A program made the translations under genes and the position numbers. Shown in pieces: positions 1,082-27,615 of a stretch of 27,615 nucleotides of DNA; the first letter of the stretch is position 1; every line of letters starts with the position of its first letter. The DNA lies in IMG/VR virus record IMGVR_UViG_3300042568_001234, positions 1 through 27,615 of that record; one strand, written 5' to 3'. The notes beneath the pieces are model-generated. The model made no database searches and was not told the origin of the DNA. It saw nothing but the letters and a program-made list of their open reading frames with translations. This DNA is from a virus.

Positions 1082-2277
1082 ATTAATGTTCTTAGATAGC
1101 TTTCGTCCCCATCTATAGATCCCTTTGGTAATAATTTCTCACCACCACTAGCCCTAATAACATCATACACAAGGTCGTTAGTTTTTAACTTAATTGCTTT
1201 TATTATTAATCCGCTTTTATCATCAGATTCAAAAGAAGCGCTCATTGAATAAGATATACTTTCATTAACGTTGACGTTATAAGAAAAATTTTCCAAATAT
1301 ATATTTTGAATAATAATTTCAGAATAATCTGAATCGGCTGAAGAAAAATCACCAATTGCAATTTTTAAAGAAAACTTTGAATCGTTTTGTAAAAATTGTG
1401 ACAGTGTTTTTTTATTAAAATTATCTGTTATTCCAGATATTTGCAATGCGCCATTAACTGGATAAATGAACTCTCTATCAATTGGTTTGTTACCTTTGTT
1501 AAAATAAAAATTTTTATTTCTAGATAAATCTACTGAAATATTAATTGTTTGAATTAATCCACTTAAAAAATTTGATACGTTTGTAAATGGTAAGTTTAAT
1601 GCATTAATAGACGAAGCGTCTAATGAAAAATTTATTACTTGATAAGTAATATTTTTCGATAAATTTTTTGAAGTTCTATCTCGCAACGATTCAATTTGTT
1701 TTTGAGATAAAATTATATTCTCTAAATTATTTTTATTTACGTAAAATCCGTGTGGATTAGGCAAGTATATTAAATTTGCAACATTTAATATTTCTTCAAA
1801 AGAAAACGATACATCTACTCTCGGAAGCGAGCCAACTGAATAGTTAAATGAATAATTTTCAATAAATAAGTTTGACAAAAATATACTCACCATATTTTCA
1901 GTGAAATCATTTGCTATTATTTTTGTTAATATCTCGCCATCTTTAGTTTCGTCTAACAACAAAAAAGCGCTTTTATTAAAAAAATTATTTTTTAAATTTG
2001 AAAAAACGCTTTTTTCTCCAGTTTCTGAAATATCAAAGCCTAGCATTCTTTCTTGAAGAAAATCATTTCTTTGAAGATAAGATATTTGTAATTTTAAATC
2101 ATTCTCTGAATATATTTTTTTATCACTAATATTTTTTCCAATTGATTTTTGAGAAACTCTTGAAACATCGTAGCTCAAAGATGCGCTCTGCAAGAAATCC
2201 AAATAATAAAAATCATGTAAATTACCAAGTGCGCTTTTATCTAAAGCTAATAAACTATTATTACTTTTAAATATCAT
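1078..2277 (-). CDS. Tail-tube-like distal tail protein (tube paralogue B)
   Basis: This 399-residue structural protein has no cysteine and no signal peptide. Two stretches match the main tube protein encoded at 18164-19429. Residues about 137-155 read 'NYSFNYSVGSLPRVDVSF', against 'NYTFNASVGNLPTASVTI' in the tube protein. The C-terminal segment K-K-T-L-S-Q-F-L-Q-N-D-S-K-F-S-L-K-I-A-I-G, followed by 'LENFSYNVNVNESISYSM', aligns with K-S-L-A-Q-M-L-D-D-N-S-K-R-E-I-S-L-T-I-G and 'LQSESFSSSIGANKTVDL'. It is therefore most likely a paralogue with the tail-tube fold. As the last gene of the distal-tail operon it is a candidate ring protein at the tail tip. Its ATG overlaps the previous gene's stop as TAATG (2275-2279), which implies translational coupling. 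The exact role is inferred. Confidence 0.6.
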   Translation of the reverse strand: MIFKSNNSLLALDKSALGNLHDFYYLDFLQSASLSYDVSRVSQKSIGKNISDKKIYSENDLKLQISYLQRNDFLQERMLGFDISETGEKSVFSNLKNNFFNKSAFLLLDETKDGEILTKIIANDFTENMVSIFLSNLFIENYSFNYSVGSLPRVDVSFSFEEILNVANLIYLPNPHGFYVNKNNLENIILSQKQIESLRDRTSKNLSKNITYQVINFSLDASSINALNLPFTNVSNFLSGLIQTINISVDLSRNKNFYFNKGNKPIDREFIYPVNGALQISGITDNFNKKTLSQFLQNDSKFSLKIAIGDFSSADSDYSEIIIQNIYLENFSYNVNVNESISYSMSASFESDDKSGLIIKAIKLKTNDLVYDVIRASGGEKLLPKGSIDGDESYLRTLI

Positions 2278-5200: not shown

Positions 5201-6404
5201 AAATTCTAACGCAGCCACTATTTCTTGAAATAGCAAAATGTTGCCACTGTCCAGTTTTTATATATAAATTTGGTTGCCAATTATAGCAGTTATTTCCAAT
5301 TTGAAAAGTGCAGTTTGAATAATCTCCAAGATGTAATTTTATTCCTCTAAAGTCAAAAAAAGAAGAAACATTTAAGCTATTTACTTTTGCAAAAAAATCA
5401 ATCGTAAAATTATCTGTATTTAATGTATATTTTTCGCTTGCTTCGTTATTTATAATGCCTCCACAAAAAGTCGGGCCACCAACATTAAAGCAAATAGAAT
5501 TTGTCGAAAAACATAATTCCTTATTTATCACATCTCCACTCCCAACAAAAATACACTCTTTATTAAAGCCAAGTAAAGTATATGGAATAGCTGAATCAAT
5601 ATAAGCAACACTTGTATTGCCAGTTCCGCTTGACATGCAATTTATTTTAAACCAAGTTTGAAAATTAAAATTTCCGCTTTTAATATTGAAACAATTGCAA
5701 CCATTACCTCCAGACGGTATCGACAAATACTCATCGTCACCAATTGCTAAACTTAAAAAATTACCAGATGTATTAGGTGCATCATATGTTCTGCGAGTTC
5801 CAGAATATTCAATTGCAAAATTATTATCTCCACAATCTATATAATCTATATTAAAATTACAAAGATCATTATATCTGTAAATTGGAGCCCCATTAATGCA
5901 ACACACAGGATATAACCCGCATAAATTTTGATTTTTTAAATTTGAAAAATTATAAAAATATCCGAATGGATATTCACCACTAGAGAAATAAGCAGAACCA
6001 TCTTGGTCTATATTTAAATTTAATAAAAGTCCCTGTTTCGGCTCAATAACATAATTAGAAAAAGAACAAGCATTTTTATTATTTATTTTTTCTTTTTCAT
6101 ATTGAAAATATAATCCGCCGACTCCAGTTTCAGCAGAACAAAGATTTATATTATAATTTCCTATATTTCTTATGTAGACAAATGGTTTGGTTGCACCATT
6201 TAAAAAAATTGGTTTTTCACTTACAGCTTCTAAAATATAAATTTGAGAATTTTGAAGTGGACATATTTCATAAAATGGCAATAATTGATCACAAAATGAA
6301 ATGCAATAATCTCCGTTAATCGATACAGGACTATTAAAATAGCTAGACTTTGAATCTACAGCAAAATCCCAACTAATATTTAAATTTTGAAGTGGATAAG
6401 CCAT
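2277..6404 (-). CDS. Large cysteine-rich tail protein with LamG-like domains (probable adhesin)
   Basis: This 1375-residue protein lies in the distal-tail operon. Residues about 225-460 and 480-600 have the pattern of concanavalin/LamG-type jelly rolls: 'FNFQTWFKIN' and 'FTIDFFAKVN' strands, then G-Q-W-Q-H-F-A-I-S (about 385) with 'VRIYAD', and a second N-Q-W-N-H-F-S-V-D with 'GSIWINGDLKCI'. These match the family's 'W.Hva..r..g..rlyvdG' region. Such domains often bind carbohydrate, so a tail-tip adhesin is likely. By my count about 69 residues are cysteine, spread over the whole length and including CC, CNC and CxxC spacings, while neighbouring tail proteins have none or a few. Residues 600-1375 are beta-rich and unrecognised. 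There is no signal peptide. The start lies 2 bp after the previous gene's stop (TAA-AT-ATG). Confidence 0.65.
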   Translation of the reverse strand: MAYPLQNLNISWDFAVDSKSSYFNSPVSINGDYCISFCDQLLPFYEICPLQNSQIYILEAVSEKPIFLNGATKPFVYIRNIGNYNINLCSAETGVGGLYFQYEKEKINNKNACSFSNYVIEPKQGLLLNLNIDQDGSAYFSSGEYPFGYFYNFSNLKNQNLCGLYPVCCINGAPIYRYNDLCNFNIDYIDCGDNNFAIEYSGTRRTYDAPNTSGNFLSLAIGDDEYLSIPSGGNGCNCFNIKSGNFNFQTWFKINCMSSGTGNTSVAYIDSAIPYTLLGFNKECIFVGSGDVINKELCFSTNSICFNVGGPTFCGGIINNEASEKYTLNTDNFTIDFFAKVNSLNVSSFFDFRGIKLHLGDYSNCTFQIGNNCYNWQPNLYIKTGQWQHFAISRNSGCVRIYADSCCVFGASNTGLCTGYCKALIGYRDGYYTLNACMYGFRFIKNQSLYTGNCISRIFPPLSISGFEKNNQQITGSIQFLGLQTGVLDSGWQNRSVSYVNGFSSTELVCEIIESGFFVKTGIKENQWNHFSVDMYNCTGSIWINGDLKCIFSGFNNSGILMPDSGTNKLIIGNGLNPVNNFNGSLSYVQYMETSTSHPFGSNFLPCNSGFNNTGYSDLSLDFKWTYDPFDSYQEFSTCSLIDNELDLNLSFSGSCKHIDSGICSYSQFGDNSYNYLINIKCVHLYCNDRFLCFIYPTGENFYSGFFQKIICEQTNLRLIYDFEFCSEKIYKFKYQYSGTSGDSNQNLLLINNLTPCSIIEISGSCIIQPNIEYSITGNSTDKFFINFNLNSGYSIASLKNKNINRENVYLPVCEILPYIYCYEIADSSHLFATGISGKFVDCDYQFSTGEFVNCSVLVSCLDQAYIDNQPADYYVCLNYCENRFCTNSILCKDNCDVSEYFVPIIGNFEKSYFYSGLEYKYYPVCCVLYKDLIYEIPESNINITLLVNDNSTVLDFPIQALSLDKLKIISNSEVYERLCNTNINLNYSGIDLNFNCCNLNSVCFKIPKINNSITSGLESPNFYLTSSYETKINDCVTLYLDPYNKFNLDRYYGLNNLLFFIASELNYGSIHMCDYCNFSYGSSDYNFLMIDLENEFYDCSHQIPSGSGSFIIDQKISCRSSSAVEPFAYKSRSGDGYAYVLPIVNCLQYSDCFIHFESGSICSEKILNKNLNFIRTGFSYEGGSTGELSVFFEDGQYSGVESGFLQNSNTNIFQNQFSINIDSESIRQTETGRILNFSKCYLFSGIQPIKFITNYPLLDIKDPIYSTNLMKYCEEVNETGLNKFYYFVYDLANFQEKSIKFLSPDFTFISSICWSDASGSRSVLNSDNFNADAKIQNNAGYVKYYAKNLINSNPYYLCFSEQNNICIDIRGGII

Positions 6405-7423: not shown

Positions 7424-8228
7424 AATATCCTAAAAAATTATTTTTTATTTCAACTGTATTTTGATTTGCAATTGAAACGTTTGAAGAAACTAATTTAGAT
7501 TTTCTTATTGGTAATTTAAATAAAGATGATGAACCAGAAACTACAATATCAAAATCTTTAAATCCATCCGCATTATCTGGAATATCTATTATTTTAGAAT
7601 TATTTGGAACTTTTGAATTTATAGAAGTTTGGATTTGCAATGGTAAAATTGGACAAACTTCAGTAGGTTCTCTTTGTCCTACAGAATAATATGGCTGTCT
7701 ATTAATAGATAAATTGTAATCGAAGCTATATATATTATATTTTTGAGTTAAATTCTGATCATAAATACCAGATATTGTTATTGAATTTAATTTAGGTATA
7801 TCTAATGTCATTAAATTAACTGATCCTCCATCAAAAAATTCAACTTGTTTTATGATTGATCCATAAGAAGAAAAACTTGTTGATATTTTAGGCAATTCGC
7901 CAACAGAAAAAGATGCTGAATAATTTTTTAAAAAAACATTAGAAATTGAAAAGAAATTTATGCCATCATAAATTCTAAATTCGCGAATTGGATCTGATCC
8001 AGTACAATCAAAAATATTATCATAATTAATAAAACTTCTATCGAAAGAAATTTCGATTTCTTCTGGAGCGTTTACGCTATATGCAGAATCAATTCCACCA
8101 AGCGAAAATCTAGAATCATAAGATAAACTCTTTTGAATATTTAAATTATTAATTCCATCTAATTCAAAAAAAGAATCTCCGTTTTTCCCAGATAAATAAT
8201 ATAGTTTATATTTTGATGGATCAATCAT
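7413..8228 (-). CDS. Tail-tube-like distal tail protein (tube paralogue A)
   Basis: This 271-residue protein is encoded immediately after the tape measure. Residues about 97-115 read 'FLKNYSASFSVGELPKISTSF', the same N-Y-(T/S)-x-x-x-S-V-G-x-L-P signature as in the main tube protein (18164-19429) and the protein at 1078-2277. It lacks the C-terminal 'KSLxQxL...SK' region seen in those two and is shorter, so it may be a single-domain version of the fold. A tube-fold protein directly downstream of the tape measure is the usual place for a distal tail (Dit-like) or tail-tip ring protein. Its ATG overlaps the tape-measure stop as TAATG at 8226-8230, so translation is probably coupled to it. Confidence 0.55.
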   Translation of the reverse strand: MIDPSKYKLYYLSGKNGDSFFELDGINNLNIQKSLSYDSRFSLGGIDSAYSVNAPEEIEISFDRSFINYDNIFDCTGSDPIREFRIYDGINFFSISNVFLKNYSASFSVGELPKISTSFSSYGSIIKQVEFFDGGSVNLMTLDIPKLNSITISGIYDQNLTQKYNIYSFDYNLSINRQPYYSVGQREPTEVCPILPLQIQTSINSKVPNNSKIIDIPDNADGFKDFDIVVSGSSSLFKLPIRKSKLVSSNVSIANQNTVEIKNNFLGYYGL

Positions 8229-11200
8229 TACCTTAACATACCTCCTAATCTCTTCTCATCTCTTAGTACTGACAAGACGACTTCTTTAATTCTTCTTGCT
8301 AATTCTTTATTTTGTTGATCTTGTTTAGAATCGCTTTGGCTTTCTTTTTCGCCACCTTTTCCATCAGAATTTACTGATATATTAATTGTTCCAACGCCAG
8401 CTATTTTTTCAACTAATTCTTCTAATTTAGCTTCTATCCTAGATGTCATTTCACCAGAATCTCCACCAGTTGCACCAGTTGAATTTAATTTTTGCAAAGC
8501 TCCATATCCAGTTTTCTGTGCAGCTTCTTTAGATACTACAAATTCCCCACCGTTTAACATTGCTGGTACGTTATCCCCCATTCCATTTCCAGCCACATAT
8601 CCACCAGCAGCCCTTCTTTGCCAAGAATATGGCGTACCCACTGAACCTTTGCTCCAAGAAACTCCCATTGGAGCAATAGCATTATATTGACCCATTGTTA
8701 ATGGTTCGTAACTTTGATTTTTAGCGTTCCAGCCTAAAGCCCCACCTGGACTTGTCGCTGTGGCTGAAACTCCAAGTAGATTAGCGGTCTTAAATGCATT
8801 AGAATCAAACTTCAATGCATTTCCTAAACCACCAAAAGTTTCTCCATTTATTTTTGCACCGCCCCACATGCCAGTAAAAAATCCTGGTTTTTCAGCACCT
8901 GGTTGACCAGAAGCAAATGCTTGTTGAGCAGCAGTTTTTCCAGCCATCATTGAGTTTCCAACAGCACTAACCGCCATTGAGACTCCAGCACTAATAAGCT
9001 GCGACATTAATGCATTTCTTGCTTGCTTTTTAGCTTGTTTTTTTGCTTCCTCATAAGCTTTTAATTGTTCTTCATATCGTTTTTGATTATCAAAATCCAT
9101 TTGGATTTTATCTTTCGAAGCTTGATATCCTTGAAAATACAAATCTAAAGCTTTATTTTTTGATTCTAAATATTGCGCATTTCTTACGTTGCCTTGATCG
9201 CGAAGTGCGAATAAAGAAAGATTTCCACTTCCAGCAGCTAAATCGATTGAAGCTCCACTACCACTCGATGAAATTTTATCATATTGAGTTCCAGCTGTTT
9301 GTTGTGTAGCGTAGGCAAGTAAGTTTTTTTGTCCTACTATCGCGCCTCGTCCATATGTTCCAGGCATGAAAAATCCGCCCTCTCCAGTCTGTTGATCTCT
9401 ACTATAAAAATCAGTCTGAGCCCTTAAAATTGCATTTTGTTTATCTTCTTCAGTGCCTGTATAGTTATCAATTCCAATTGCTTTTCCATTTTCGTCAAAC
9501 GATAAACCACCCATTCGAGTTTGACCATATGGCGTATATTTTGTAGGATTTTTAATTAAATCATTTAAGTCTGTTTCAACTAACCCTCCATTCGCAAATC
9601 CTTTTAATTTGCCAGCATTAAGTTTATCAAAGAAATCTTTTCCATATTTATTAACTGCATTCTTTTTAATAACATACTCGCCACCCATTAACATTGCTGG
9701 AACGTCATCTTTATTCCCAGAACCGCCTTTGATAATTCCTCCAGATGCAAAACCAAGCATACCAGCAACGCCAGTTCCAGGCTGCCCATTTCCAAAAAGT
9801 CCTGTAGTCAACTGATTTGCAGCTTTTGTCATTAATGCATCATTTATTTTATTGACGAATGCAGTTGCCACGCCCATTAATCTTTCACCTAATGAAGTTG
9901 TGGCGTTAGGGTCAGATAATGCTTTCATTGCATCAACTAATCCATCTCTAAAATTCATTGGAATTTGTTTTCCAAGAGTATTGCCGAATTCTTCTACTTG
10001 TGTATTTAATGCGCTCAAGGATTCTTTCATTCCTAAACCAAATTCTACTCTTGATCTTTCTGCAAAAATAGCCGCTTCTGTTTTAAATTGTTTTGTTTTA
10101 TCTATACTTTCTTCTTGTTTTCTTTGGTCCAAAGGTTGCTCTAAATTATTTATTGCTCCAATAGTTTTTCTATCTAGCTTTTCGGGCGGTGGCGCAAATG
10201 GATCTAATTTAAGTGATAATGCATCATATTTATCTGCAATAGTTTGCAAATCATCTTCCAAAGTATTTATTTCACTTTTTAAACCTTCAACTATCGCCAC
10301 ATCATATTGATTTGATATGGCAGTTTCCAGTTCATTTTTTTTCTCATCAATTTTTTCTTGCAATTTATTTGTTTGATCTATCAATTTAAAAGATTCATCT
10401 TCAAAATCTTTCGTATATCCTTTTTGATTTTTGCCACTGTACAAGTTTGAATCTATAGCTTGCTTTTTAGCAATTGCGATTGGATTTTTTGTTGGCGCAG
10501 TTTCGCCAGTTTTTTCGCTTGGATTAATGTATTCAGCAGTTTCGATAACTATCTTTTTAAATTCTTTTGCTGCACTTATAATTGAAGATTCAAAACTTTT
10601 TTCATCTATACTGTATGCTTTTTCTAAAGCTGAAAGCAACTCATCTTGAGTTTTTGCATTCATAGCTTCTCGCGCAAGCGGCATAGTCTCTGGCCTTTCA
10701 GAAAGGCGCTGTACTACTTTTGATTTGTTTGCATTTGCTATTTCTTGATTACGTGTTCTTAAATCTTCTTTTCTCCTATCAGCTTCTCTTTGAATATCTT
10801 GCAATTGTTGAGAAAATTTATCTTTTGGAGTATCTCTTCCTATTCTAGCAATACCAACTTCCGCATCTTCAATTTCTCTTAAGTATCCAAGTCTTTCTTT
10901 TTCTTTTTGGAGAGCTTGATCTCTTAAAGTTAAATTTGCCCTTAATATATCTCTTTCGGTATTAAAATAAAAATCTTGTTGTTTTTTGATTGAGGTATTC
11001 AATGAGTCTAATGCATTTTGCCTTGCTTTTTCTGCAGAAGCTTTTTTTGCATAATCGACTTGCTTGCCCATTATATTGAGCATTGTTTCGAGAACAATAT
11101 TGGAAGCTCCAATGGTTTGTAATTTTTCTTGTTCTGCTTTAACCAGCTTTTCTTGACTTTCTATTTGCTCTTTGCTTGCATTCCCTTCGCTAATTAATTT

Positions 11201-14200
11201 CTCTAAAATTTGTTTCTTTGTGTTTAATTGTTTTTCAATTTCTTTGGTTTGCTCTTCTGAATTTTTTCTAATAGGAATTAATAAATCATTAAATTCTTTT
11301 ATTGCTTGATTTGATTCTTCTAAAGAGTTTGCATCTATTATTTTCTGAAATCCTCCTTTAAGCTCCGCTCTTCTTGGTTCAGTTAAACTTGAACCAGTCA
11401 TTCCTAAATATTTATCTAAAGTTTCGCGACCTCTTGTTGTCGTAATATTTTTGATTTCGGACTGCAGTCTTCTTTGTTCTTCTAATTGCTTTAATTCTAA
11501 ATCGATAGAACTTCTTCTTGCTTCCGTTGTTGAAAGCAAATCTTTTTCGATTGACAGCATGTTCTCTCTTGGAGTTATTCTATTTAATTCTAACTGCTTT
11601 AATTTTGTTTGAATGTCTAATTCTTCTTTTAAGAAATTTGCACTAACAAGCATTGCTTCTTGACGAACTGATTCGGCATAAGCGGCTTGTTGGGCTGGAG
11701 CCACTTGTTCTTTTATATATTCTGCAATCAATTTGGCATATTCAACTTCATTCAATTTGAGAGTAACTTTTTCTTTTGTATTTTGATTTATAAAATCTTC
11801 TTCTCTTTTAATATCTTGTAGCAATTTTTTTCTTTCTTTTTCTAAATCGACATTACTTATAAGATCAAGTTTATTATTTTTAATATCTTGATCGATAGAG
11901 GCGAGTCTATCATATTTATCACTTAATCTACCTTTAGCTTCAACTGCTGCTTGCTTAATTTCTGGAGTTTTTATTTCGTATGTTGCTTGCTTTTGAAGTT
12001 CCGTTAATCTTTCGACTAACATTTCAATACTTTTAGATTGAATTTCAGTATTTGTTGGATTTTGATTTCCTTCTGTAGTTAACTGTTGAGTTGCTTGTGG
12101 AGCAATAACGTTACCTAGTTTTTCCAGCAACGCCTTTTGTCCATCAGTAGTTAATTTAGTTGAATTTACTAATTCTTTTAAATTTCCAAAAGTTTTAAAA
12201 TCTTCATTTTCTACTATTTTTCCATACAGCATTGAAAGCTTTGACGCTATATCGGTTCCACCAGCAGCGCCTTCTGATATTTTTGAAACTGTTTTTTTCT
12301 GTTGTTCAGTTAATTGAATGTTATATTTTTCACTTGCAGTTGTTAAATCTTCTATGAATTTTTCGCTTTTTGCAATAGTCCCATTCCAAATTTGCATCGC
12401 AGAATCTACCGCCTTAATTCCCTCATATGCAGCAACTGCGTAACCAGCTCCAGCAGTTATAAAGCCTACTGCTGCCATTCCTCCACCGCCTTTCAAGAAT
12501 GCACCCGCTTGAGATCCTAGAGATCCTCCGCTTTCTTTTGCGGCTTGTGCCGCTTTTTTTCCAGCCTCAAATCTGCCACTTATTCCACCTTCGCCAGCTA
12601 TTGAAGTTCCTAAATCTTTTGCTTGAGAAAACAAATATAAAGATTGTCCAGCCCCATTTAAAATTTCAGCTATTTTTTCTCCAGATTTTCCAAATGAAGA
12701 CATTGCTCCAGTCGCGAATGATAGCGCTGTTTGAAACTTGACTAAATTATATAGAGCATCTTGGGTAGTTTTTGTTTCTTTTTCATTTGCGCCCTTTTTA
12801 CCTTGAGCATCTTTATTACTTTGGTCAGTATTTTCTTTATTGCTTTCTGTTACTTGCTGTGTGGATTGTACAACATCACTTCCGCTTGAAGTCATTTTAT
12901 CAAAAACTTGAACTACGGCTTCTCCACTTACTCCAAGATTGTCAGCAATTCTTTTGAAGGCGTCATCAAGATTTAGAGACGAATCTTTTAAATTTTTTAA
13001 TCCATCTAAAGACTCTTCTATGGCTGCGACGACATCTGGATTTAATCCACCAGACGCAAAGTTGGGCACTCTGCCATCTGGCTCATCACGATTATTAATT
13101 ACTGCATATCCGTCTGGATTTTGCGGTCCTCGCACGCGAGCATCTTGAACCACCTTAATTGCAGATAATGGCAAACCAGATTCGCTTTGTTCGCGACCTA
13201 TAGCATCTAAAATAGCTTCTTTTGAAAAATTTGGAATATAACCTCTTGACGCACTTCCTTCTGGCGTACCTTTCCACCGCTTCAAAAACTCTTCCCTCTT
13301 TTCACTTTTTCTCTTATCTCTCGCTTCTCTTTTAATCCTATTTAATTCTACTTCAGGCTCTTGAGTTTTTTGTACAAATTTTAGTTGATCTATTATTTCA
13401 AATAGATCTATTCCCTCTGGCATATTCAATAAATTGCCAATAATATTATTTGCCAATTCTTTTCCAACTGGAGAGAATTTTTTTGCAGCCTCCATTAACC
13501 TTTTTATAAAAGGATCATTTCTGGTTACTGTTCCATCACCGTCAACATCTCCAGACGCAAAATTTGGCACGTATCCTACTGCCGCAGTTTTTGTCGGAGC
13601 ATAAGTCTGAAGCGACTTTTCAAAATTTATATTATCCCAATCAGAAACTCCAAAATCTCTTAAAGTCTCCAAAATAGTTCTTAGATTTTCAAATTCAGCA
13701 TCATTAACAACAGCCATTTTCTTTTTAGCTTTGTTATATGCAAAATTAGATTTTATTTTCTTTGCAAGAAATGGATTTTTTTCAGCTAATTTATTTAATT
13801 TATTTTCAATTCCGTATTCACCCTTCCAGCCTGTGATGAATGCAGTGCTTGTTCTGCCGTATTGATCCTCTTTGGTTTTCTCGTAAGAACCATATGGATA
13901 TTCGCTTTTCGCAATTATTGAAAGAACGTCAGAAGCATTAAATTTAGTTTTGTAGAACGTTGAATCTTCTCCTTCAGATGGGCGTTTTTTAGGATCATTT
14001 AAAATAATTCTATCTAATTTAGATTTACCAACTCTTTTTAAATTTTCTGGAGTTTGCAAGGGCATGACAAATCTTCTTTCTTGTTGAAGTTGATCAACTT
14101 TTAATTTATCTGGCAAAAGCAAGTTTCCATATTGATCTATATCAACACTCTTTCCTAAAGCTAAAAATTCTGCATCGTCTCGACCTATTGTAGTCATGAT

Positions 14201-17200
14201 TGCAGATACTTTAGTCTTTAATCTTTTTGTTAATTCATCTATAACTACTGGCCTGAACTGAGTAACTAACTTTGATATTTTGCTTTGTTCATCTGGACTA
14301 TTGATCGAACGAACACCAGCACTCGCTTTCGTTTGGAAAATTTGAGTCCAGACATCTTGCATGTTTCTATTTTTTGCAATGATATCAAATATTTGTCCAA
14401 GTTTTTCGTATTTTAATTCTCTCGCAAAACCACTGACTTCTCCAGTTACAGCTCTATTTTCGTCTGATTTTACTTCTGGCATTTGGCCAAAAGCAGTTTT
14501 GTTGGTTTTACCAGTTTTATAACTGGTAAATGCAGACATTAATTTCGCATAATATGCCTTATCAAGATTTCCATCATTTCCAAGTAAATGATAATTCGGC
14601 CCTAAAATGGAAGCCGCCATATCATTTTTAATTTTATTTATGTCTAAATTCTCATTAACTTTTGTTCCAGCTAAATCTGTGGTATATGATTCATTGCCAC
14701 CAAGTCTGTTTTTTAACTGCTCTATTGTTGCGCCTTTTACTCGATCACCAATTGTCATTACTGGTGCATTTTTCAATTCTCTTATTGCAAAATTGGGAAC
14801 ATAACCTTCTGCAGCCGTATTTAAATTATAATTAGATTCGTAAACAGTAAAGTCAATATCTTCCAATAAAGAATCTAAATCATCACTTTTTTTATTTCCC
14901 TTTTTTCCCTTTCCTTCAGATCCCAAAAATGCTAAAACTTTACTATTCGCTTCAGATTGAGTGAGCGCAGTTTTTCTTGCTTTTATTTCAACTAACTTTT
15001 TTCTATCCCTGCTGTGGAAATCAATTCCAGCATTAAAATCTTCTACCTTTACATAAGAAGTTAATTTATCTTTAAATTCTTTTTCTGCAATCGCTCCCTG
15101 TAAATTACTTTTTAATCCACCTAGAGAATTACCTTTTATTTTGCGATCTAAAATTTTGTTATATTCAAATTTGTCGCTTAAATAAGAACCGTAAGTATTT
15201 TGAATATATGAATAATCGCCTTTTTCTCTTGCGGATTTAATTAATTTATCTGCTTGGTCTCTATAAGTGATTGCATTTTTTTTATTTTTTTCTCTTTTGA
15301 TTTTTACATTTGCCGATTGTAAATAATCATCAAATTTTTCAGAACCATCATCATAATAAAATCCTAAATTGCCACCACCTTTACCACCCTTTTTAAGGGC
15401 AGAAATTTTTGTTTTGGAAAAATTTGGAACATATCCTTCGGATGCAGTTTTTGCTTTTTCTTCAACTTTGCCTTTTGCATCTTCTTTAGAAATTGATGCT
15501 GACTGATTTAACAGTTTAGCTTTTAAAACTTCACCACCTGGTTGAGAAAGTTGTTGTATAAATTTTGTGCCCAACTCGTCATTTAAAGCTTTTTCGGAAG
15601 ATTTAATTTCAACATATTCCCAAAACTTTTTAGGCAATCCATACTGTTCTGCAATGTCTGGCTTCAATCCATAAATATCGAATCTACTATTTGAGTCGTT
15701 GAAAAACTGACCAAAATTTTCATCTTCAGCAGACATGTTGGCCATTTTGAGCATCGTCTCAAAAAATGTACCAGCCATGCTATCATTGACTAAATTAAAA
15801 TTTTTGCCCCTGTTCATCATCAACTGCATTGTTGCAGTTGGCTTTATGCCCAATGAACTTAGTTCGTCTTTTATGAAAGTTCCTATTTGAGGACTTAGAG
15901 CTTCGTTTGCCTTTTTAAGAAAATGATTTTTTATATCTTCTTCACTTGCTTCAAGCGAATCTAAATTTTGATCACGCCTTCTATAAATATTTCCAACACT
16001 TACATTTTTAAAATTAAGTTTAGAATATTTTGATAAGGCTTCAATTAAAGCTGGATCTTTTGTTTCGCTTAACAATTGCGGAGTTAATTGCTTACCCCTT
16101 ATCCCTTTTGATCCAGTTCCTCCTATTGTTAAACCCGCAAACGAATAAGCATTTGCATCAATATCTAAACTTTTTTGTACGTCTGCAAAATTTGGAACAT
16201 ATCCAGAAGCTGAAAATAAAGTTGGTTTTCCAGTTCTAGTTTTAGAATAAGATGGAACTACAAAATCTCCCATTGGAGTCTTATAAACAGACTCCATTGA
16301 GTTAACTATCATTGTCCCTCGACCTTCCGTTGGGCCAAAATTAAAGTTGGAAATTTCTTTTATAGAAGCGCCAGCTGGAGCTTCTTGCATCTCCATTTTT
16401 CTAGCAGTATCTTTAGACATGTATCCACCAGCGGCAGTTTTCGCTTTAACATTTTTTGTGCCTTCTGTAGTTAACCTAATTCCTCCCTCATAAACTGAAG
16501 GTCCAACTTCCTTACTAAGTTTCGACATTCTTTCTAATGTCGCAGCTTGCTTCGAATAAAGACCTAAAAGATATTCTGCTTGAGCAGTTTTATTTCCTTC
16601 TAATGAAACAATTTTTGTTTGAACGGCAGTGTTTTGAAGCAATAATCCAAGTATAGATTTTTCTATATCTTGTTGTTCTTTTTTTACATTTGTTACGCCA
16701 AGTTGATTCTTTAAACTATCAACACCAAATTTTGCAAGATCACCAAAAAGTTTAATTCCAAGACCAGCAATCAAAAGAGCCCCTGGACCAGTAATTACAG
16801 AACCAATTCCTTTAACAATTGATTTTCCAATTGTCGCTCCACCTTCTTCTCCACCAGAAATACTTTCATTTAAAGATTCAAGAAATGAAGATGTTTTATT
16901 TAAAATAGATCTAAAATCATCAGAAAAAGCAACCTTACCAATAGTTGCCGCAAATTGAGTTCCAGAAGTCGTTAATCTGTCAAATGAAGCTTGAACTGTT
17001 TTATTTAGTTCATCTAACTTTTTAAAACCTTGATTTCCAGCATTTGATGATTGTTCCAAACTTCTATTAAATGTGCCATTTGCATTTGATATATCGTTAA
17101 GCAATGCGGCTAATTTATCAATTTGAAAACCACCACCGATCTTAATTAAAAGACCTTTTCTAGTTGCTGAATCTAAATTTTGAAATTCATCCGCAAGTTT

Positions 17201-18076
17201 TTTAATGATAGTTGTAGCGGGAAGAATGTCGCCACTGACATCATTTACTGCAATTCCCAAATTTCTGATATAATCGAGATTTTCAGTTGTTTGAACCCTT
17301 TGAAAAATTGTTTTTAAAGCGTTACCAATTACAGCTCCACCACGCGCAGTTTTTTCTTGGAGTGTTGTAATTAATGCTGTTAATTCGTCGAAAGAAACTC
17401 CAGCCTCTTGGGCTACCGAAGCGGAACGGGAAATACCTTCAATCAAATCTCTAGAACTGACTGCAAACTTAGTATCAACTGCAGCTAATTTATTTACTAC
17501 AGTTTCGTAATCTAATCCAACTTGATTAAATGACAAAACAGCAGCCGTAAGACCCTTTACGGCCTCTGCTGCATCCAAGCCAGTAGTTCTTGTCAATACT
17601 AGCGCAGCTTTTGCTTTCATCAAGGAATCTTCAAGAGTTCCACCTTGACGAGCAAATTCTAACGTAGCCTCAGACGCTTGTTTAAAAGACAGTCCAGTAG
17701 ATCTGGCGACCTCAAATATTCCTTTTCCCAATCTTTCCAAATTGCCACTTGTTTCTCCAGTAGCGACTTGAATTTCTTTAAGAGAAGCTTCAACTTGAGT
17801 ACTAGCAATAACTATATTTTGAAAACTTTTTGCTACAGCATTTAATACACCAACAGAAGCTCCGAACGCAAGTACGCGAGCGTTTGCAGCTTCCATTGAT
17901 TTTGAGAATTCATCAGCTTGGCCAGTGATTCTGCCAAGAGGGGCACTGATCTTTTCAAGACCTTTAGAATCTATAGTTGGACGTATAACTACAGTAGCCT
18001 TACGCGCAGCGTTGGCTATCTGCGATTCCATTTGCGTTGTGTCCGCTCCTACTGATAAACGAATATCTTCTGCCAT
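8228..18076 (-). CDS. Tail tape measure protein with multiple inserted modules
   Basis: This 3282-residue protein controls tail length. Residues about 65-360 are the classical tape-measure core (TIGR01760/PF10145 type), with 'AFGASVGVLNAVAKSFQNIV', 'ATGETSGNLERLGKGIFEVA' and 'LDAAEAVKGLTAAVLSFNQ'. Hydrophobic stretches lie near 430-455, 1865-1890 and 3020-3045. Residues about 620-1675 carry six G-Y-(V/I)-P-N-F-type motifs at 625, 881, 1091, 1501, 1612 and 1668 (the last is G-R-V-P-N-F) that separate modules. Two modules look nuclease-like, and one opens with a D-x-D-x-D-G calcium loop. Residues about 2000-2700 are highly charged coiled coil. Two copies of a G-G-E-(Y/F)-V box with D-x-V-P-A-M-L lie near 2776-2806 and 3156-3186, as is common at tape-measure C-termini. 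I saw no cysteine in the whole protein. AAAGGA lies 7 bp before the ATG. Confidence 0.93.
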   Translation of the reverse strand: MAEDIRLSVGADTTQMESQIANAARKATVVIRPTIDSKGLEKISAPLGRITGQADEFSKSMEAANARVLAFGASVGVLNAVAKSFQNIVIASTQVEASLKEIQVATGETSGNLERLGKGIFEVARSTGLSFKQASEATLEFARQGGTLEDSLMKAKAALVLTRTTGLDAAEAVKGLTAAVLSFNQVGLDYETVVNKLAAVDTKFAVSSRDLIEGISRSASVAQEAGVSFDELTALITTLQEKTARGGAVIGNALKTIFQRVQTTENLDYIRNLGIAVNDVSGDILPATTIIKKLADEFQNLDSATRKGLLIKIGGGFQIDKLAALLNDISNANGTFNRSLEQSSNAGNQGFKKLDELNKTVQASFDRLTTSGTQFAATIGKVAFSDDFRSILNKTSSFLESLNESISGGEEGGATIGKSIVKGIGSVITGPGALLIAGLGIKLFGDLAKFGVDSLKNQLGVTNVKKEQQDIEKSILGLLLQNTAVQTKIVSLEGNKTAQAEYLLGLYSKQAATLERMSKLSKEVGPSVYEGGIRLTTEGTKNVKAKTAAGGYMSKDTARKMEMQEAPAGASIKEISNFNFGPTEGRGTMIVNSMESVYKTPMGDFVVPSYSKTRTGKPTLFSASGYVPNFADVQKSLDIDANAYSFAGLTIGGTGSKGIRGKQLTPQLLSETKDPALIEALSKYSKLNFKNVSVGNIYRRRDQNLDSLEASEEDIKNHFLKKANEALSPQIGTFIKDELSSLGIKPTATMQLMMNRGKNFNLVNDSMAGTFFETMLKMANMSAEDENFGQFFNDSNSRFDIYGLKPDIAEQYGLPKKFWEYVEIKSSEKALNDELGTKFIQQLSQPGGEVLKAKLLNQSASISKEDAKGKVEEKAKTASEGYVPNFSKTKISALKKGGKGGGNLGFYYDDGSEKFDDYLQSANVKIKREKNKKNAITYRDQADKLIKSAREKGDYSYIQNTYGSYLSDKFEYNKILDRKIKGNSLGGLKSNLQGAIAEKEFKDKLTSYVKVEDFNAGIDFHSRDRKKLVEIKARKTALTQSEANSKVLAFLGSEGKGKKGNKKSDDLDSLLEDIDFTVYESNYNLNTAAEGYVPNFAIRELKNAPVMTIGDRVKGATIEQLKNRLGGNESYTTDLAGTKVNENLDINKIKNDMAASILGPNYHLLGNDGNLDKAYYAKLMSAFTSYKTGKTNKTAFGQMPEVKSDENRAVTGEVSGFARELKYEKLGQIFDIIAKNRNMQDVWTQIFQTKASAGVRSINSPDEQSKISKLVTQFRPVVIDELTKRLKTKVSAIMTTIGRDDAEFLALGKSVDIDQYGNLLLPDKLKVDQLQQERRFVMPLQTPENLKRVGKSKLDRIILNDPKKRPSEGEDSTFYKTKFNASDVLSIIAKSEYPYGSYEKTKEDQYGRTSTAFITGWKGEYGIENKLNKLAEKNPFLAKKIKSNFAYNKAKKKMAVVNDAEFENLRTILETLRDFGVSDWDNINFEKSLQTYAPTKTAAVGYVPNFASGDVDGDGTVTRNDPFIKRLMEAAKKFSPVGKELANNIIGNLLNMPEGIDLFEIIDQLKFVQKTQEPEVELNRIKREARDKRKSEKREEFLKRWKGTPEGSASRGYIPNFSKEAILDAIGREQSESGLPLSAIKVVQDARVRGPQNPDGYAVINNRDEPDGRVPNFASGGLNPDVVAAIEESLDGLKNLKDSSLNLDDAFKRIADNLGVSGEAVVQVFDKMTSSGSDVVQSTQQVTESNKENTDQSNKDAQGKKGANEKETKTTQDALYNLVKFQTALSFATGAMSSFGKSGEKIAEILNGAGQSLYLFSQAKDLGTSIAGEGGISGRFEAGKKAAQAAKESGGSLGSQAGAFLKGGGGMAAVGFITAGAGYAVAAYEGIKAVDSAMQIWNGTIAKSEKFIEDLTTASEKYNIQLTEQQKKTVSKISEGAAGGTDIASKLSMLYGKIVENEDFKTFGNLKELVNSTKLTTDGQKALLEKLGNVIAPQATQQLTTEGNQNPTNTEIQSKSIEMLVERLTELQKQATYEIKTPEIKQAAVEAKGRLSDKYDRLASIDQDIKNNKLDLISNVDLEKERKKLLQDIKREEDFINQNTKEKVTLKLNEVEYAKLIAEYIKEQVAPAQQAAYAESVRQEAMLVSANFLKEELDIQTKLKQLELNRITPRENMLSIEKDLLSTTEARRSSIDLELKQLEEQRRLQSEIKNITTTRGRETLDKYLGMTGSSLTEPRRAELKGGFQKIIDANSLEESNQAIKEFNDLLIPIRKNSEEQTKEIEKQLNTKKQILEKLISEGNASKEQIESQEKLVKAEQEKLQTIGASNIVLETMLNIMGKQVDYAKKASAEKARQNALDSLNTSIKKQQDFYFNTERDILRANLTLRDQALQKEKERLGYLREIEDAEVGIARIGRDTPKDKFSQQLQDIQREADRRKEDLRTRNQEIANANKSKVVQRLSERPETMPLAREAMNAKTQDELLSALEKAYSIDEKSFESSIISAAKEFKKIVIETAEYINPSEKTGETAPTKNPIAIAKKQAIDSNLYSGKNQKGYTKDFEDESFKLIDQTNKLQEKIDEKKNELETAISNQYDVAIVEGLKSEINTLEDDLQTIADKYDALSLKLDPFAPPPEKLDRKTIGAINNLEQPLDQRKQEESIDKTKQFKTEAAIFAERSRVEFGLGMKESLSALNTQVEEFGNTLGKQIPMNFRDGLVDAMKALSDPNATTSLGERLMGVATAFVNKINDALMTKAANQLTTGLFGNGQPGTGVAGMLGFASGGIIKGGSGNKDDVPAMLMGGEYVIKKNAVNKYGKDFFDKLNAGKLKGFANGGLVETDLNDLIKNPTKYTPYGQTRMGGLSFDENGKAIGIDNYTGTEEDKQNAILRAQTDFYSRDQQTGEGGFFMPGTYGRGAIVGQKNLLAYATQQTAGTQYDKISSSGSGASIDLAAGSGNLSLFALRDQGNVRNAQYLESKNKALDLYFQGYQASKDKIQMDFDNQKRYEEQLKAYEEAKKQAKKQARNALMSQLISAGVSMAVSAVGNSMMAGKTAAQQAFASGQPGAEKPGFFTGMWGGAKINGETFGGLGNALKFDSNAFKTANLLGVSATATSPGGALGWNAKNQSYEPLTMGQYNAIAPMGVSWSKGSVGTPYSWQRRAAGGYVAGNGMGDNVPAMLNGGEFVVSKEAAQKTGYGALQKLNSTGATGGDSGEMTSRIEAKLEELVEKIAGVGTINISVNSDGKGGEKESQSDSKQDQQNKELARRIKEVVLSVLRDEKRLGGMLR
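13514..13549 (-). other. Calcium-loop (dockerin/EF-hand-like) motif in the tape measure
   Basis: Residues 1510-1521 read D-V-D-G-D-G-T-V-T-R-N-D, with acidic residues at loop positions 1, 3, 5 and 12 and Gly at position 6. This is an exact 12-residue EF-hand/dockerin-type loop. It begins three residues after the fourth GYVPNF motif and is followed by a helix, 'PFIKRLMEAAKKF'. Only one loop is seen, whereas dockerins normally have two. Confidence 0.55.
14882..15139 (-). other. PD-(D/E)XK nuclease-like module 2 inside the tape measure
   Basis: Residues about 980-1065 lie between the second and third GYVPNF motifs. They contain G-A-I-A-E-K-E-F-K-D-K-L (helix with E, about 990), then D-F-N-A-G-I-D-F (D near 1017), then K-L-V-E-I-K-A-R (about 1027), a helix, and a Lys/Gly-rich linker. 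This is the same E - D - E-x-K order as module 1, in a shorter domain resembling Mrr/Holliday-resolvase type cores. The two modules share little sequence outside the motif, so they are probably not a recent duplication. Confidence 0.5.
15527..15874 (-). other. PD-(D/E)XK nuclease-like module 1 inside the tape measure
   Basis: Residues about 735-850 lie between the first and second GYVPNF motifs. They contain a helix with G-T-F-F-E-T-M-L (about 770), a strand with S-R-F-D-I-Y-G-L-K-P-D-I (about 799), then W-E-Y-V-E-I-K-S-S (about 820) and a following helix with F-I-Q-Q-L (about 842). Glutamate in the first helix, aspartate at the strand, E-x-K on the next strand and a Gln-bearing helix are the signature order of the PD-(D/E)XK nuclease fold. 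Activity is not shown. Confidence 0.5.
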
Positions 18077-23500: not shown

Positions 23501-25957
23501 TTATAAGTTAATTTGAAATACACGAACATGACCAGCGTCAACTTTTGCTCCATTTACATCGTTATAAAACGCTGCAATCGCAACTCTATCACCAGCAGCG
23601 TTCATTGAGACAGGCGAGCCAAAAAAATCATTAGCCGCTTCCCCATTAATATTCACTCCCAACTGCGTCCAAGCCGTTCCGTTCCAACTATATATACGAA
23701 CATGACCAGTATTAGAATATTTACCACTCCCCCCAATCGCGACTCTATCACCAGCAGCATTCATTGAGACTGAGCCCGAATAGTCACCAGCCGCTTCCCC
23801 ATCAATATCCACGCCCAACTGCGTCCAAACGCCAGATCGCAGTTCATATACACGAACATGACCTCGATTATTTGTAGAAGCTCCTCCTGCATCGTTACTA
23901 GTCGATCCAATCGCAACCCTATCACCAGCAGCGTTCATTGAGACAATGCTAGATTCATCACCAGCCGCTTCCCCATCAATATCCACTCCCAACTGCGTCC
24001 AAGCCGTTCCGTTCCAACTATATACGCGAACATGTCCTCGATTATTTATAGAAGTTCCTCCTGCATCATTAGTAGGCGCTCCAATTGCAACTCTATCACC
24101 AGCAGCGTTCATTGAAACTGAAGAGCCAAAACCATCACCAGCCGCTTCCCCATCAATATCCACACCCAACTGCGTCCAAGTACCAGATTGTAGTTCATAT
24201 ATACGAACATGACCAGCGTCAACTTTTGTTCCGCCTACATCATTCAATACTGCCCCAATCGCAACCCTATCACCAGCAGCGTTCATTGAGACTGATCTGC
24301 ACCAATCATTAGCCGCTTCCCCATCAATATCCACACCCAACTGTGTCCAAGCCGTTCCATTCCAACTATATATACGAACATGACCAGAATTAGAACCATT
24401 GATTCCATCGTTTAGCTGCGCTGCAATTGCAACTCTATCACCAGCAGCGTTCATTGAGACTGATATGCCAAACCAATCATTAGCCGCTTCCCCATCAATA
24501 TCCACACCCAACTGCGTCCAAGTATCAGATTGTAGTTCATATATACGAACATGACCAGCGTTAACTTTTGTTCCGCCTACATCGTTAAAAGTTCCTCCAA
24601 TTGCAACCCTATTACCAGCAGCGTTCATTGAAACTGGTCTGCCAGATTCATCACCAGCCGCTTCTCCATCAATATCAGATCCTAACTGATATATTGCTAT
24701 TCTATTACCGATTACATAATCATAATATATACGAACATGGCCAGAATTAAAGCCATTTCCATCGTTATATTGTGTCCCAATCGCAACTCTATCACCAGCA
24801 GCGTTCATTGAGACTGAATAGCCAGATTGATCGCCAGCCGCTTCTCCATCAATATCCACTCCCAACTGCGTCCAAGCCGTTCCGTTCCAACTATATATAC
24901 GAACATGGCCAGCAGTAAGACCATTTCCATCGTTATAATGTGCCCCAATCGCAACTCTATTACCAGCAGCGTTCATTGAGACCGAAATGCCAAATTGATC
25001 GCCAGCCGCTTCTGCATTAATATCCACTCCCAACTGCGTCCAAGCCGTTCCGTTCCAACTATATACGCGAACATGACCAGCATCAACGCCATTTCCATCA
25101 TTCAATACTGCCCCAATCGCAACTCTATTACCAGCAGCGTTCATTGAAACTGAAGTGCCAAATTGATCGCCAGCCGCTTCTCCATCAATATCCACTCCCA
25201 ACTGCGTCCAAGCCGTTCCGTTCCAACTATATACGCGAACATGACCAGAACTAGAACCATTTCCATCGTTACTCCAAGCCCCAATCGCAACTCTATCACC
25301 AGCAGCGTTCATTGAGACTGAATCGCCAAATTGATCATTAGCCGCTTCTCCATCAATATCCACTCCCAACTGCGTCCAAGCCGTTCCATTCCAACTATAT
25401 ATACGAACATGACCACCGTCAACTTTTGTTCCGCCTACATCATTACCCCAAGCCCCAATCGCAACTCTATCACCAGCAGCGTTCATTGAGACTGAATAGC
25501 CAAAACGATCACCAGCCGCTTCTGCATTAATATCCACTCCCAACTGCGTCCAAGCCGTTCCGTTCCAACTATATACGCGAACATGACCAGCATCAACGCC
25601 ATTTCCAGCGTTATAAATCGCTCCAATCGCAACTCTATCACCAGCAACGTTCATTGAGACTGACAAGCCAGACCAATCACCACCCGCTTCTCCATCAATA
25701 TCTACCCCCAATTGCGTCCAAGCCGCTCCATTCCAACTATATATACGAACATGGCCAGAAGAAGAACCATTTCCATCATTCAATATTGCCCCAATCGCAA
25801 CCCTATCACCAGCAGCGTTCATTGAGACTGAATAGCCAAAATAATCAGCAACCGCTTCTCCATCAATATCTTGCCCTAATTTTAAAAACCTATTCTTTCC
25901 TAAAGAAACAAAGTCTCTTTTCGTATCTAAATTATTAAACTTTTTAAAAAATGACAT
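23501..25957 (-). CDS. FG-GAP-type repeat protein, probable double beta-propeller (receptor-binding candidate)
   Basis: This 818-residue protein is made almost wholly of 14 repeats of 53-60 residues. Each has L-G-V-D-I-D-G-E-A-A-(G/N)-D, then 'SVSMNAAGDRVAIGA', an acidic N-D-G-N-G-type loop, and 'GHVRIYSWNGTAWTQ'. This is the FG-GAP/integrin-like blade pattern. Fourteen blades suit two seven-bladed propellers. The blade linker changes once, near residues 405-425, to 'YYDYVIGNRIAIYQLG', and this resembles the protein's own start, 'FVSLGKNRFLKLG'. No signal peptide or membrane segment is seen, so as part of a phage it would be a virion surface protein. It lies 12 bp after the fibre gene stop and is probably cotranscribed with it. 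It converges on the (+) chaperone trio with a 4-bp gap. Confidence 0.8.
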   Translation of the reverse strand: MSFFKKFNNLDTKRDFVSLGKNRFLKLGQDIDGEAVADYFGYSVSMNAAGDRVAIGAILNDGNGSSSGHVRIYSWNGAAWTQLGVDIDGEAGGDWSGLSVSMNVAGDRVAIGAIYNAGNGVDAGHVRVYSWNGTAWTQLGVDINAEAAGDRFGYSVSMNAAGDRVAIGAWGNDVGGTKVDGGHVRIYSWNGTAWTQLGVDIDGEAANDQFGDSVSMNAAGDRVAIGAWSNDGNGSSSGHVRVYSWNGTAWTQLGVDIDGEAAGDQFGTSVSMNAAGNRVAIGAVLNDGNGVDAGHVRVYSWNGTAWTQLGVDINAEAAGDQFGISVSMNAAGNRVAIGAHYNDGNGLTAGHVRIYSWNGTAWTQLGVDIDGEAAGDQSGYSVSMNAAGDRVAIGTQYNDGNGFNSGHVRIYYDYVIGNRIAIYQLGSDIDGEAAGDESGRPVSMNAAGNRVAIGGTFNDVGGTKVNAGHVRIYELQSDTWTQLGVDIDGEAANDWFGISVSMNAAGDRVAIAAQLNDGINGSNSGHVRIYSWNGTAWTQLGVDIDGEAANDWCRSVSMNAAGDRVAIGAVLNDVGGTKVDAGHVRIYELQSGTWTQLGVDIDGEAAGDGFGSSVSMNAAGDRVAIGAPTNDAGGTSINNRGHVRVYSWNGTAWTQLGVDIDGEAAGDESSIVSMNAAGDRVAIGSTSNDAGGASTNNRGHVRVYELRSGVWTQLGVDIDGEAAGDYSGSVSMNAAGDRVAIGGSGKYSNTGHVRIYSWNGTAWTQLGVNINGEAANDFFGSPVSMNAAGDRVAIAAFYNDVNGAKVDAGHVRVFQINL
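23630..25880 (-). repeat. Fourteen tandem DNA repeats of about 160-180 bp (propeller blades)
   Basis: The block encoding L-G-V-D-I-D-G-E-A recurs near 23640, 23795, 23968, 24150, 24318, 24490, 24663, 24842, 25013, 25182, 25350, 25524, 25688 and 25855, with long near-identical runs between copies. Units of about 156-180 bp stay in frame. Such close DNA identity implies recent expansion or gene conversion and would allow blade number to change by recombination. Confidence 0.9.
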
Positions 25958-25969
25958 ATTCTTAATATT

Positions 25970-27615
25970 TTAAGAAAAGAATCCCAAAGACCCAAATATG
26001 CGAAATGAATTACTTCCCGTTTTGAATGTAGTTATAGAATAAACATTAGTTGCATTTGGAACTCCAGATGGAGTGCCTCCACCACCAGCCCATATTACAG
26101 ATCTTGCAGTTCCATCTATATTTACACCAGTTAAGGCGAAACAGCTTGCGCCGTTAACATGCGCGAAACTTACGGATAAACTATTATTTAATGGTAATAA
26201 ATTATTAAAAGTACAAGAAGCATTACCTCTTAAATTTATATAAAAATTAGAACTTGAATTGCCAGTATAAAATAAAGTAGAATTGGGTATAACATCAAAA
26301 TTAATTAAATTAGTATTGATAATACTGGAAGATGTAAAGCTTTCATAAATAGTATTGACTCCGCTAGATCCACCGCCACCACCAAATGTTCCCGTCTGAC
26401 CCGTAGTAACATAGCAATTGCGTGCATAACCAGTCGTTTCGTATACGCCCGTCTGACCCGTATTCACGAAACAATTGCGTGCATAACCAGTCGTTTCGAA
26501 TATGCCAGTTTCCGAACATAAAGCAAAAACTCCAGATTGTATTTTACTCGCCTCAATTCCCGCACTACCAGATATATCAGAGTTAGTTATTAAACTAGCT
26601 CTGCTTTGCATTATTCCATTAATTACTTTAACTAATCCCGAACCACCAACGCTTGGAACAGTAGTATGAACGTGAGAAGGAGTATTGCCACCAAAGTAAA
26701 AAGTTATTCTTTTATGGTTAGCCAATGCTTTTGCTAGATATCTTATGTATAATCTATCTGTAGAAGTTATGGTTGTTTGTGGCAATACAACTGACCCTAT
26801 ATATTGAGCAGTAACAGCACCATCATAAGTATAAATATCATCAGAACTTGCTATTAATGTCGCAGTAGTAGTTGCGCCATCGTATTTATATACTTCTAAT
26901 TTTACAATTGTTTGTGTTGAAGTGTTGCTAGATGCCCAGAAATTAAAATCAAATAAACCAGCTGGAATTGTAGAAATATTTGGGTCCAAGACATCAGTAA
27001 TAAAACCAACAACTCCAGTATAATTAGCAGTTGGCAAATCTGGAGTTTGGAATGAGAATTGACCAGTTATTCCAGACCTGCCTAATTCATAAGCTCCAGA
27101 AATTGTATGCGGAAGATTTCCAGTAGGAAGATCCGCAGCAACCCTTTCATTGAAGTAGTAAACCAATCCGCCACCGCCATTGCCACCAGCAGCAATATCG
27201 CCTGGAACCCAAGATGTACCATTAAATTGTAAAGTTTGGCCATTTGCTGGAGTCGCAGTTGATACTGGATATCCTTGCAATTGGCAGATCAATGCATTAT
27301 TAGTGCCAGCCACAATGCAAATGTCTCCAGTGATTGTGGGAATTTGCGAAGATAAAAGATATCCACTATTAATAGTTGCAAAATTACCCGTCTGCGAGGT
27401 AGTCACAAAACTACCAGTTTGATCTACAAAGACGTAATCGCCAGTAGGAGCGAATACGCTGGAGAGATCGCCAGTTTGTGCAGCTGTAACGTAATCGCCA
27501 GTAGGAGCGAATACGCTGGAGAGATCGCCAGTTTGTGCAGCTGTAACGTAATCGCCAGTAGGAGCGAATACGCTGGAGAGATCGCCAGTTTGTGCAGCTG
27601 TAACGTAATCGCCAG
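25970..27615 (-). CDS. Tail fibre protein, 5' end outside window
   Basis: The frame is open from the right edge to a TAA at 25970-25972, giving at least 548 codons. A GTG at 27406 could serve as a start, but the frame continues uninterrupted and repetitive to the window end, so the gene is partial here. Parts in order: exact 19-residue repeats (27433-27615); 'TLQFNGTSWVPGD', a shaft/collar segment common in fibres; a jelly-roll-like domain from 'LVYYFNERVAADLPTG' to 'DRLYIRYLAKALANHKRITF' and 'THVHTT'-like S-H-V-H-T-T; a second 19-residue repeat pair (26399-26512); a Gly-rich hinge; and a C-terminal beta domain. The shaft repeats contain Q-T-G and T-G-(Y/F) every 19 residues. The likely role is a trimeric host-binding or structural fibre. 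Confidence 0.7.
   Translation of the reverse strand, partial: GDYVTAAQTGDLSSVFAPTGDYVTAAQTGDLSSVFAPTGDYVTAAQTGDLSSVFAPTGDYVFVDQTGSFVTTSQTGNFATINSGYLLSSQIPTITGDICIVAGTNNALICQLQGYPVSTATPANGQTLQFNGTSWVPGDIAAGGNGGGGLVYYFNERVAADLPTGNLPHTISGAYELGRSGITGQFSFQTPDLPTANYTGVVGFITDVLDPNISTIPAGLFDFNFWASSNTSTQTIVKLEVYKYDGATTTATLIASSDDIYTYDGAVTAQYIGSVVLPQTTITSTDRLYIRYLAKALANHKRITFYFGGNTPSHVHTTVPSVGGSGLVKVINGIMQSRASLITNSDISGSAGIEASKIQSGVFALCSETGIFETTGYARNCFVNTGQTGVYETTGYARNCYVTTGQTGTFGGGGGSSGVNTIYESFTSSSIINTNLINFDVIPNSTLFYTGNSSSNFYINLRGNASCTFNNLLPLNNSLSVSFAHVNGASCFALTGVNIDGTARSVIWAGGGGTPSGVPNATNVYSITTFKTGSNSFRIFGSLGFFS
26399..26512 (-). repeat. Two 57-bp repeats in the fibre gene
   Basis: Two consecutive 19-residue units, E-T-G-I-F-E-T-T-G-Y-A-R-N-C-F-V-N-T-G and Q-T-G-V-Y-E-T-T-G-Y-A-R-N-C-Y-V-T-T-G, are encoded by 57-bp units with few differences. 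A third unit starts Q-T-G-T-F and then passes into a Gly-rich run. Confidence 0.85.
27433..27615 (-). repeat. Exact 57-bp tandem repeats at the window edge
   Basis: Three copies that read as identical (27433-27489, 27490-27546, 27547-27603) and the start of a fourth (27604-27615) run off the window. On the minus strand each encodes the 19 residues Q-T-G-D-L-S-S-V-F-A-P-T-G-D-Y-V-T-A-A in phase. The total copy number is unknown. Confidence 0.95.

Follow-up and report, generated by a model that had tools for sequence, protein, structure and literature searches.

The window analysed here, virus record IMGVR_UViG_3300042568_001234 in its entirety (27,615 bases), ends in an array of exact 57-base-pair (bp) tandem repeats, which therefore lies at a contig end. 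We find that this array very probably encodes part of the stalk of the tail fibre of an uncultured tailed phage, and that the contig was most likely cut within it by a loop in a short-read assembly graph with word length k = 127. The two features concerned are as follows:

27432 to 27615, minus strand: 184-bp run of exact period 57 that encodes the 19-residue unit GDYVTAAQTGDLSSVFAPT three times in full and runs off the contig end
25970 to 27613, minus strand: open frame of 547 residues without a start, the C-terminal part of a probable tail-fibre protein, as judged from its identity to the related contig L002 and from the head domain of its relatives

The period-57 run has 0 mismatches from position 27432 to the last base and comprises 3.23 copies of the unit. 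Its three full in-frame units on the minus strand occupy 27557-27613, 27500-27556 and 27443-27499, and the remaining 11 bases (27432-27442) are the beginning of the next, diverging unit GDYVFVD; the translation accordingly reads GDYVTAAQTGDLSSVFAPT three times and then the diverging GDYVFVDQTGSFVTTSQTGNFATINSGYLLSSQIPT. The longest exact self-match at offsets of 5-500 is 127 bp inside the array versus 72 bp outside it (positions 1-27400), where it belongs to another repeat gene, and chance is no explanation for the exact run. A sequence-only reading of the window had described exact 57-bp repeats running off its end in a fibre gene and encoding a 19-residue unit; the in-frame translation confirms both points, with the run beginning at 27432, one base before the 27433 given there. 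That reading also counted three identical copies and a fourth begun. There are indeed three full identical units, but in a run of exactly 127 + 57 bp they cannot be read as the copy number.

Once an exact run of period p is k + p bases long, a de Bruijn graph built on words of length k can no longer follow it, and 184 bp is the length left by a k = 127 graph after one turn of a 57-bp repeat loop. In simulated assemblies (k = 127, p = 57, random flanks, one run per array size), arrays of 114, 161, 171 and 183 bp were resolved (4/4), and all eight sizes from 184 to 1715 bp broke with 127 bp kept per flank. The contig L066, which belongs to a different metagenome, terminates in a 57-bp array of another sequence, and its last 127-mer recurs once, 57 bp earlier, with no longer match. 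The longest shared terminal word was exactly 127 bases at 9/68 true contig ends versus 0/74 artificial cut ends; the ends of the window and L066 matched themselves, the other seven matched other contigs, and any other word length occurred at three ends or fewer. We infer from these contig ends, and not from an assembly record, that the collection was assembled with k = 127; the Joint Genome Institute runs metaSPAdes up to this value, although the passages of two papers do not state it. The copy number seen in the window is most likely a product of the assembler and not of biology, and 3.23 units is a lower bound. The earlier warning that assemblies mishandle the array is supported. Because such stops occur only in an exactly repeated stretch, they select for exactness, which at the contig end is weak evidence that the array is young.

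Related contigs break in the same gene. A pattern scan and tblastn found the 19-residue unit in three contigs in addition to the window, and three of these four contigs terminate within their array. The exception is L002, whose run of 161 bp is shorter than the 184-bp limit and was crossed by the assembly. Among 42 distinct contigs (window not included), a shaft match lies within 10 bp of a contig end in four (0.035 expected), within 100 bp in five (0.325 expected) and within 250 bp in six (0.81 expected). L038 and L039 are the same over 8285 bp, and L038 stops in its 54-bp array, which L039 crosses with seven units (counted by eye) and one diverging unit. Gene order agrees with breakage at this point: the genes upstream of the fibre gene are found on L064 and L066, both of which end in the shaft, the window and L003 start in the shaft and carry the downstream genes (82-99% protein identity), and L028 spans both sides. 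Neighbouring genes shared by L036 and L064 have 90-97% protein identity. From their shared metagenome number and gene order, L064 and L003 may be two halves of one phage. No overlap joins L064 to L065 (they share no end word of 20 or more bases, nor any 25-mer across 700 bases where they face each other), and a 38-base word from the array had no match in the viral collection, so that the other half of the window phage was not found there.

The stop of the window's open frame is at 25970, and its candidate starts within the contig are internal codons only. Beyond the exact array the frame contains the following parts:

27290 to 27442, minus strand: Thr-Gly shaft units that have diverged and that separate the exact array from the conserved module (GDYVFVDQTGSFVTTSQTGNF...), from the translation and comparison with relatives
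26501 to 27289, minus strand: conserved module of ~263 residues, common to many uncultured phages, with a beta-sandwich model
26391 to 26504, minus strand: older 57-bp tandem pair, 88% identical, whose unit contains TGYARNC, from a repeat scan
25970 to 26383, minus strand: C-terminal domain, matching phrog_5906 (unknown function) over residues 411-546 (E 2.8e-9)

The best relative, L002, has the whole gene (1494 residues); over the last 543 of these, identity to the window frame is 74%, and L002 carries three copies of GDYVTATQTGTLTSVFAPT directly before GYLLSSQIPT, the third with a different end. The head domains (first 80-90 residues) of L002, L064, L066 and L038 all match tail-fibre or long-tail-fibre PHROGs (4/4), although weakly (E 7.5e-5 to 0.0022). 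The record comes from a tailed phage, because the window carries a 3282-residue tape-measure protein, and a terminase gene lies upstream of the fibre gene in L036 and L066. A phage tail-fibre protein should have a long repetitive shaft, which the Thr-Gly units form, and should be encoded among tail genes, as this one is. The gene most likely encodes the C-terminal part of a tail fibre, which supports the sequence-only reading of the array as a fibre shaft; the repeats probably serve as its stalk. A tail-fibre protein would also belong to the virion and bind the host.

The model of the conserved module has a mean predicted local distance difference test score (pLDDT) of 59.9, with 104/263 residues at 70 or more, and suggests a beta-sandwich with moderate confidence in its core. 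Foldseek matched the module to CocE-type esterases; these matches probably reflect a beta-sandwich domain and have no bearing on enzyme activity. Among viral models (best 50 of 1830 matches), the module matched uncultured Caudovirales proteins, some of them named for a chaperone (S74) or for collagen repeats, and L046, which encodes another Thr-Gly shaft protein, has a C-terminal Peptidase_S74 chaperone domain. The window protein matched no Pfam family at E 0.01 and had no sequence relative in the PDB at E 0.001. Pfam matches to repeat-rich proteins (ARF_AD, Fascin, DUFs) were set aside as composition effects, mostly having no single passing stretch. Cellular genomes scanned with the shaft peptide and the module alignment gave no confirmed relative, and the shaft peptide had no match in 50,697 phage records, a search in which the low-complexity filter may mask one.

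The shaft has a regular short unit. Across 30 shaft genes, a set without duplicates and without genes of fewer than eight units, the commonest spacing of successive Thr-Gly pairs is 9 residues, accounting for 244 of 1024 distances of up to 40 versus 6.0 in shuffles, and further peaks lie at 3, 6, 10 and 14. The commonest 9-residue form is TG-[NDS]-[FY]-[VI]-[TS]-x-[SA]-[QE], and in the window one 9-residue and one 10-residue form in tandem make up the 19-residue unit. The unit sequence lacks the Gly-X-Y collagen repeat. Triple beta-spiral shafts of the adenovirus type are trimeric and built from repeats of ~15 residues. As a separate observation, L070 and L068 are the two ends of one record, IMGVR_UViG_3300037189_026210 (71164 bp); because both ends cut genes with Thr-Gly units, that phage seems to carry more than one such gene.

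Several observations weigh against parts of this reading. The window lacks the N-terminus and head domain of the fibre, the top-ranked head-domain match of both L002 and L038 is phrog_29752 (unknown function), and the shaft model is unusable (mean pLDDT 46.2). The 127-base mark is present in only 2/7 contigs that end in a Thr-Gly shaft, namely the window and L066; the repeated end word is 62 bases in L038 and 68 in L067, and L044/L068, L064 and L003/L065 have no repeated end word of 20 or more bases. Ends without the mark may have other or mixed causes, such as low depth or strain variation.

Are the repeats uniform away from contig ends as well? The sequence-only reading held that identity at the DNA level means an array that is young or kept uniform, and core units that lie away from contig ends uphold this. 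In L002 a single silent base separates the first two units, and the end of the third has diverged (~91%, by manual count); L066 has five units with no more than one silent difference and a first unit that is 86% alike; and two units of L086 are identical. Core units are 98-100% alike within an array, and the best unit pairs between phages are 75.4-89.5% alike. Because units are alike within an array and unlike between phages, these comparisons support the view that arrays arise, or become uniform, within each lineage, with edge units diverging. Synonymous codon sharing between phages was 0.56 for array-array pairs versus 0.42 expected, the pairs including related phages.

The arrays also differ in base composition. 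The window array is 53% G+C versus 33% in the record, and its third-position G+C is 0.38 where codon use predicts 0.19. Of 19 shaft genes that hold near-exact arrays, 18 have more third-position G+C than codon use predicts (Wilcoxon P = 8e-6, a statistic that treats related genes as separate and includes some genes on one contig; by eye there are ~10 independent groups, each positive on average), versus 5/19 for the other shaft codons of those genes (P = 0.49); a second masking and reference gave an excess in 19/19. Near-exact arrays of other proteins in these loci show an excess in 2/8 only, and one of those eight, L084 (-0.02), is a Thr-Gly array missed by the filter, so that the fair Thr-Gly count is 19/20. 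Median observed/expected CpG is 1.21 in arrays, 0.67 in other shaft and 0.76 in loci (P = 0.003 for arrays versus other shaft). The third-position excess is small (+0.03 to +0.06) in L040, L041 and L045, where CpG is not enriched. Arrays in which third-position G+C and CpG are raised relative to diverged shaft units of their own genes include those at window 27432-27615 and in L066, L044, L002, L028, L039, L067, L070 and L071.

Two alternatives concern the end of the contig. The repeats themselves could be an assembly artefact, one or two real units having been walked by the assembler in a false loop; the run does end exactly at the graph-determined length, and its last 57 bases could be a second pass of the same graph edge. 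For a k = 127 loop to form, however, reads must span more than two consecutive units, and 57-bp arrays also occur in contig interiors (L002 with three units, L066 with five near-identical ones and a variant), as do the seven 54-bp units of L039. We consider this explanation highly improbable: the artefact that the sequence-only reading named as its refutation extends to the count and the end point, which the assembler most likely made, whereas the repeats are very probably real. The array could instead be the natural end of the phage DNA, a terminal repeat, given that it occupies the last base of the record. The reading frame stays open through the contig end, however, and the gene runs on beyond this point, with its gene order kept, in L002 and L028, which leaves a natural end barely credible.

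Two further alternatives concern how the units came to be alike. The copy number could be fixed, with exactness reflecting recent duplication without turnover and with a stalk that is invariant within a population. In agreement with this, and against turnover, no difference in length appears among near-identical contigs (six in the L046 group, the three contigs L055/L056/L058, the three L072/L074/L075 and the two L034/L035), and L038 and L039 agree over their shared part. These groups hold only arrays that could be assembled, though, and are biased against seeing variation, and within a phage, neighbouring core units resemble one another more closely than they do units of other phages. Related phages, moreover, differ by whole units, with shaft length changing in 9-residue steps in L046, L041 and L040: their open frames have 465 codons (six contigs), 510 (L041) or 555 (L040) and differ mainly by 9-residue units between conserved flanks, with the DNA of L041 and L047 87-92% identical in three aligned stretches and 77% in a fourth; the shaft also differs between the window and L002. 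The earlier proposal that fibre length could vary between phages thus stands for related phages, but copy-number variation within one population was not seen among the near-identical contigs, and a fixed copy number is possible, if on the unlikely side. The near-exact arrays might also have been homogenised by a process that favours G+C, or GC-rich units might amplify more easily, which would make the arrays a DNA-level product as much as a protein feature. The third-position excess in array genes relative to other shaft codons and the CpG median speak for this; the 2/8 among arrays of other proteins, the relatedness of many of the 19 genes, and the small excess and low CpG of L040, L041 and L045 speak against it, and we regard it as doubtful. 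A G+C excess could come from biased repair while units are homogenised, or from GC-rich units amplifying more readily. An extension of the same idea, in which shaft arrays act as a fast length dial whose actively homogenised units acquire an excess of C- or G-ending codons and CpG that older diverged units lack, is equally speculative and is offered with little confidence.

If the array is a fibre stalk cut by the assembly, as we prefer, the history would be as follows. The stalk would be built from short units that begin with Thr-Gly and most often have nine residues; whole in-frame units would be gained and lost by recombination or slippage, giving stalks of various length; and this turnover would keep neighbouring units alike within one phage while phages differ. 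Where the exact stretch reached at least 184 bp, a k = 127 short-read assembly could not cross it and the contig would halt after one turn of the loop, leaving the 5' half of the gene on another contig, perhaps from the same sample.

Fibre genes with repeated parts are known elsewhere. Duplication of a small fibre-protein domain is described for T4 gene 37 (Tetart et al. 1996), and the window shares this kind of duplication, but in the shaft and with no known host effect. In T4 the duplicated part lies in the adhesin tip and is reported to change host range. For Enterococcus phage EfV12-phi1, PMC6365445 describes in-frame tandem duplications, varying in number, in a putative tail-fibre gene; they were found in all four coevolution replicates and linked to infectivity, and their 1.8-kilobase unit arose in the laboratory. 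The window likewise has tandem repeats in a fibre gene, but its unit is 57 bp and natural, and no change over time was observed. E. coli prophages with collagen-like fibres have stalks whose lengths vary in whole units, in multiples of three residues (collagen) or seven (coiled coil) (PMC3368898); whole-unit length differences are common to both, but the window unit lacks Gly-X-Y and, with Thr-Gly at its start, contains two glycines among its 19 residues. That repeats fragment short-read virus assemblies, with long reads as a remedy, is described in passages of PMC6487183 that are silent on fibre-shaft arrays and on the k + p end length. Among the papers listed by searches on fibre repeats and contig breaks, none was recognised as describing a Thr-Gly shaft of this type. 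In sum, this is a coding array of known kind that lies in a probable fibre shaft, where a known limit of assembly most likely ended the contig.

Other genes of the window have features of their own. Next to the fibre gene, an 818-residue protein (23501-25957, minus strand) has ~13.5 diverged 56-residue repeats (168 bp) and matches FG-GAP_2 in eight stretches, and is perhaps a beta-propeller; third-position G+C is 0.29 in its gene versus 0.20 in the tape-measure gene. The tape-measure protein (8228-18076, minus strand) has the scattered motif GY[VI]PNF[AS] in five copies and a variant, found by eye. A 1375-residue cysteine-rich protein (2277-6404, minus strand) has a Laminin_G_3 (concanavalin-like) stretch at residues 327-418 and is possibly another tail-tip or binding protein. 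A 118-residue protein (271-627, plus strand) matches HSP20/alpha-crystallin (E 1.2e-5, above the Pfam cut-off).

Fibre genes decide host binding, and in this phage group the 57-bp unit is where three of the four contigs that carry it terminate. Because contigs break in the fibre gene, the halves of one phage are likely filed as separate partial viruses. By the k + p rule such ends can be recognised in catalogues, and the rule gives a lower bound for the array. If the shaft arrays are actively homogenised length dials, third-position G+C would reveal array turnover from sequence alone, and array-caused breaks would keep the fibre genes that vary most out of sight in virus catalogues built from short reads. 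Should the number of units vary within populations, the arrays would provide a simple and measurable route to a change in fibre length, through which any effect on host range might arise.
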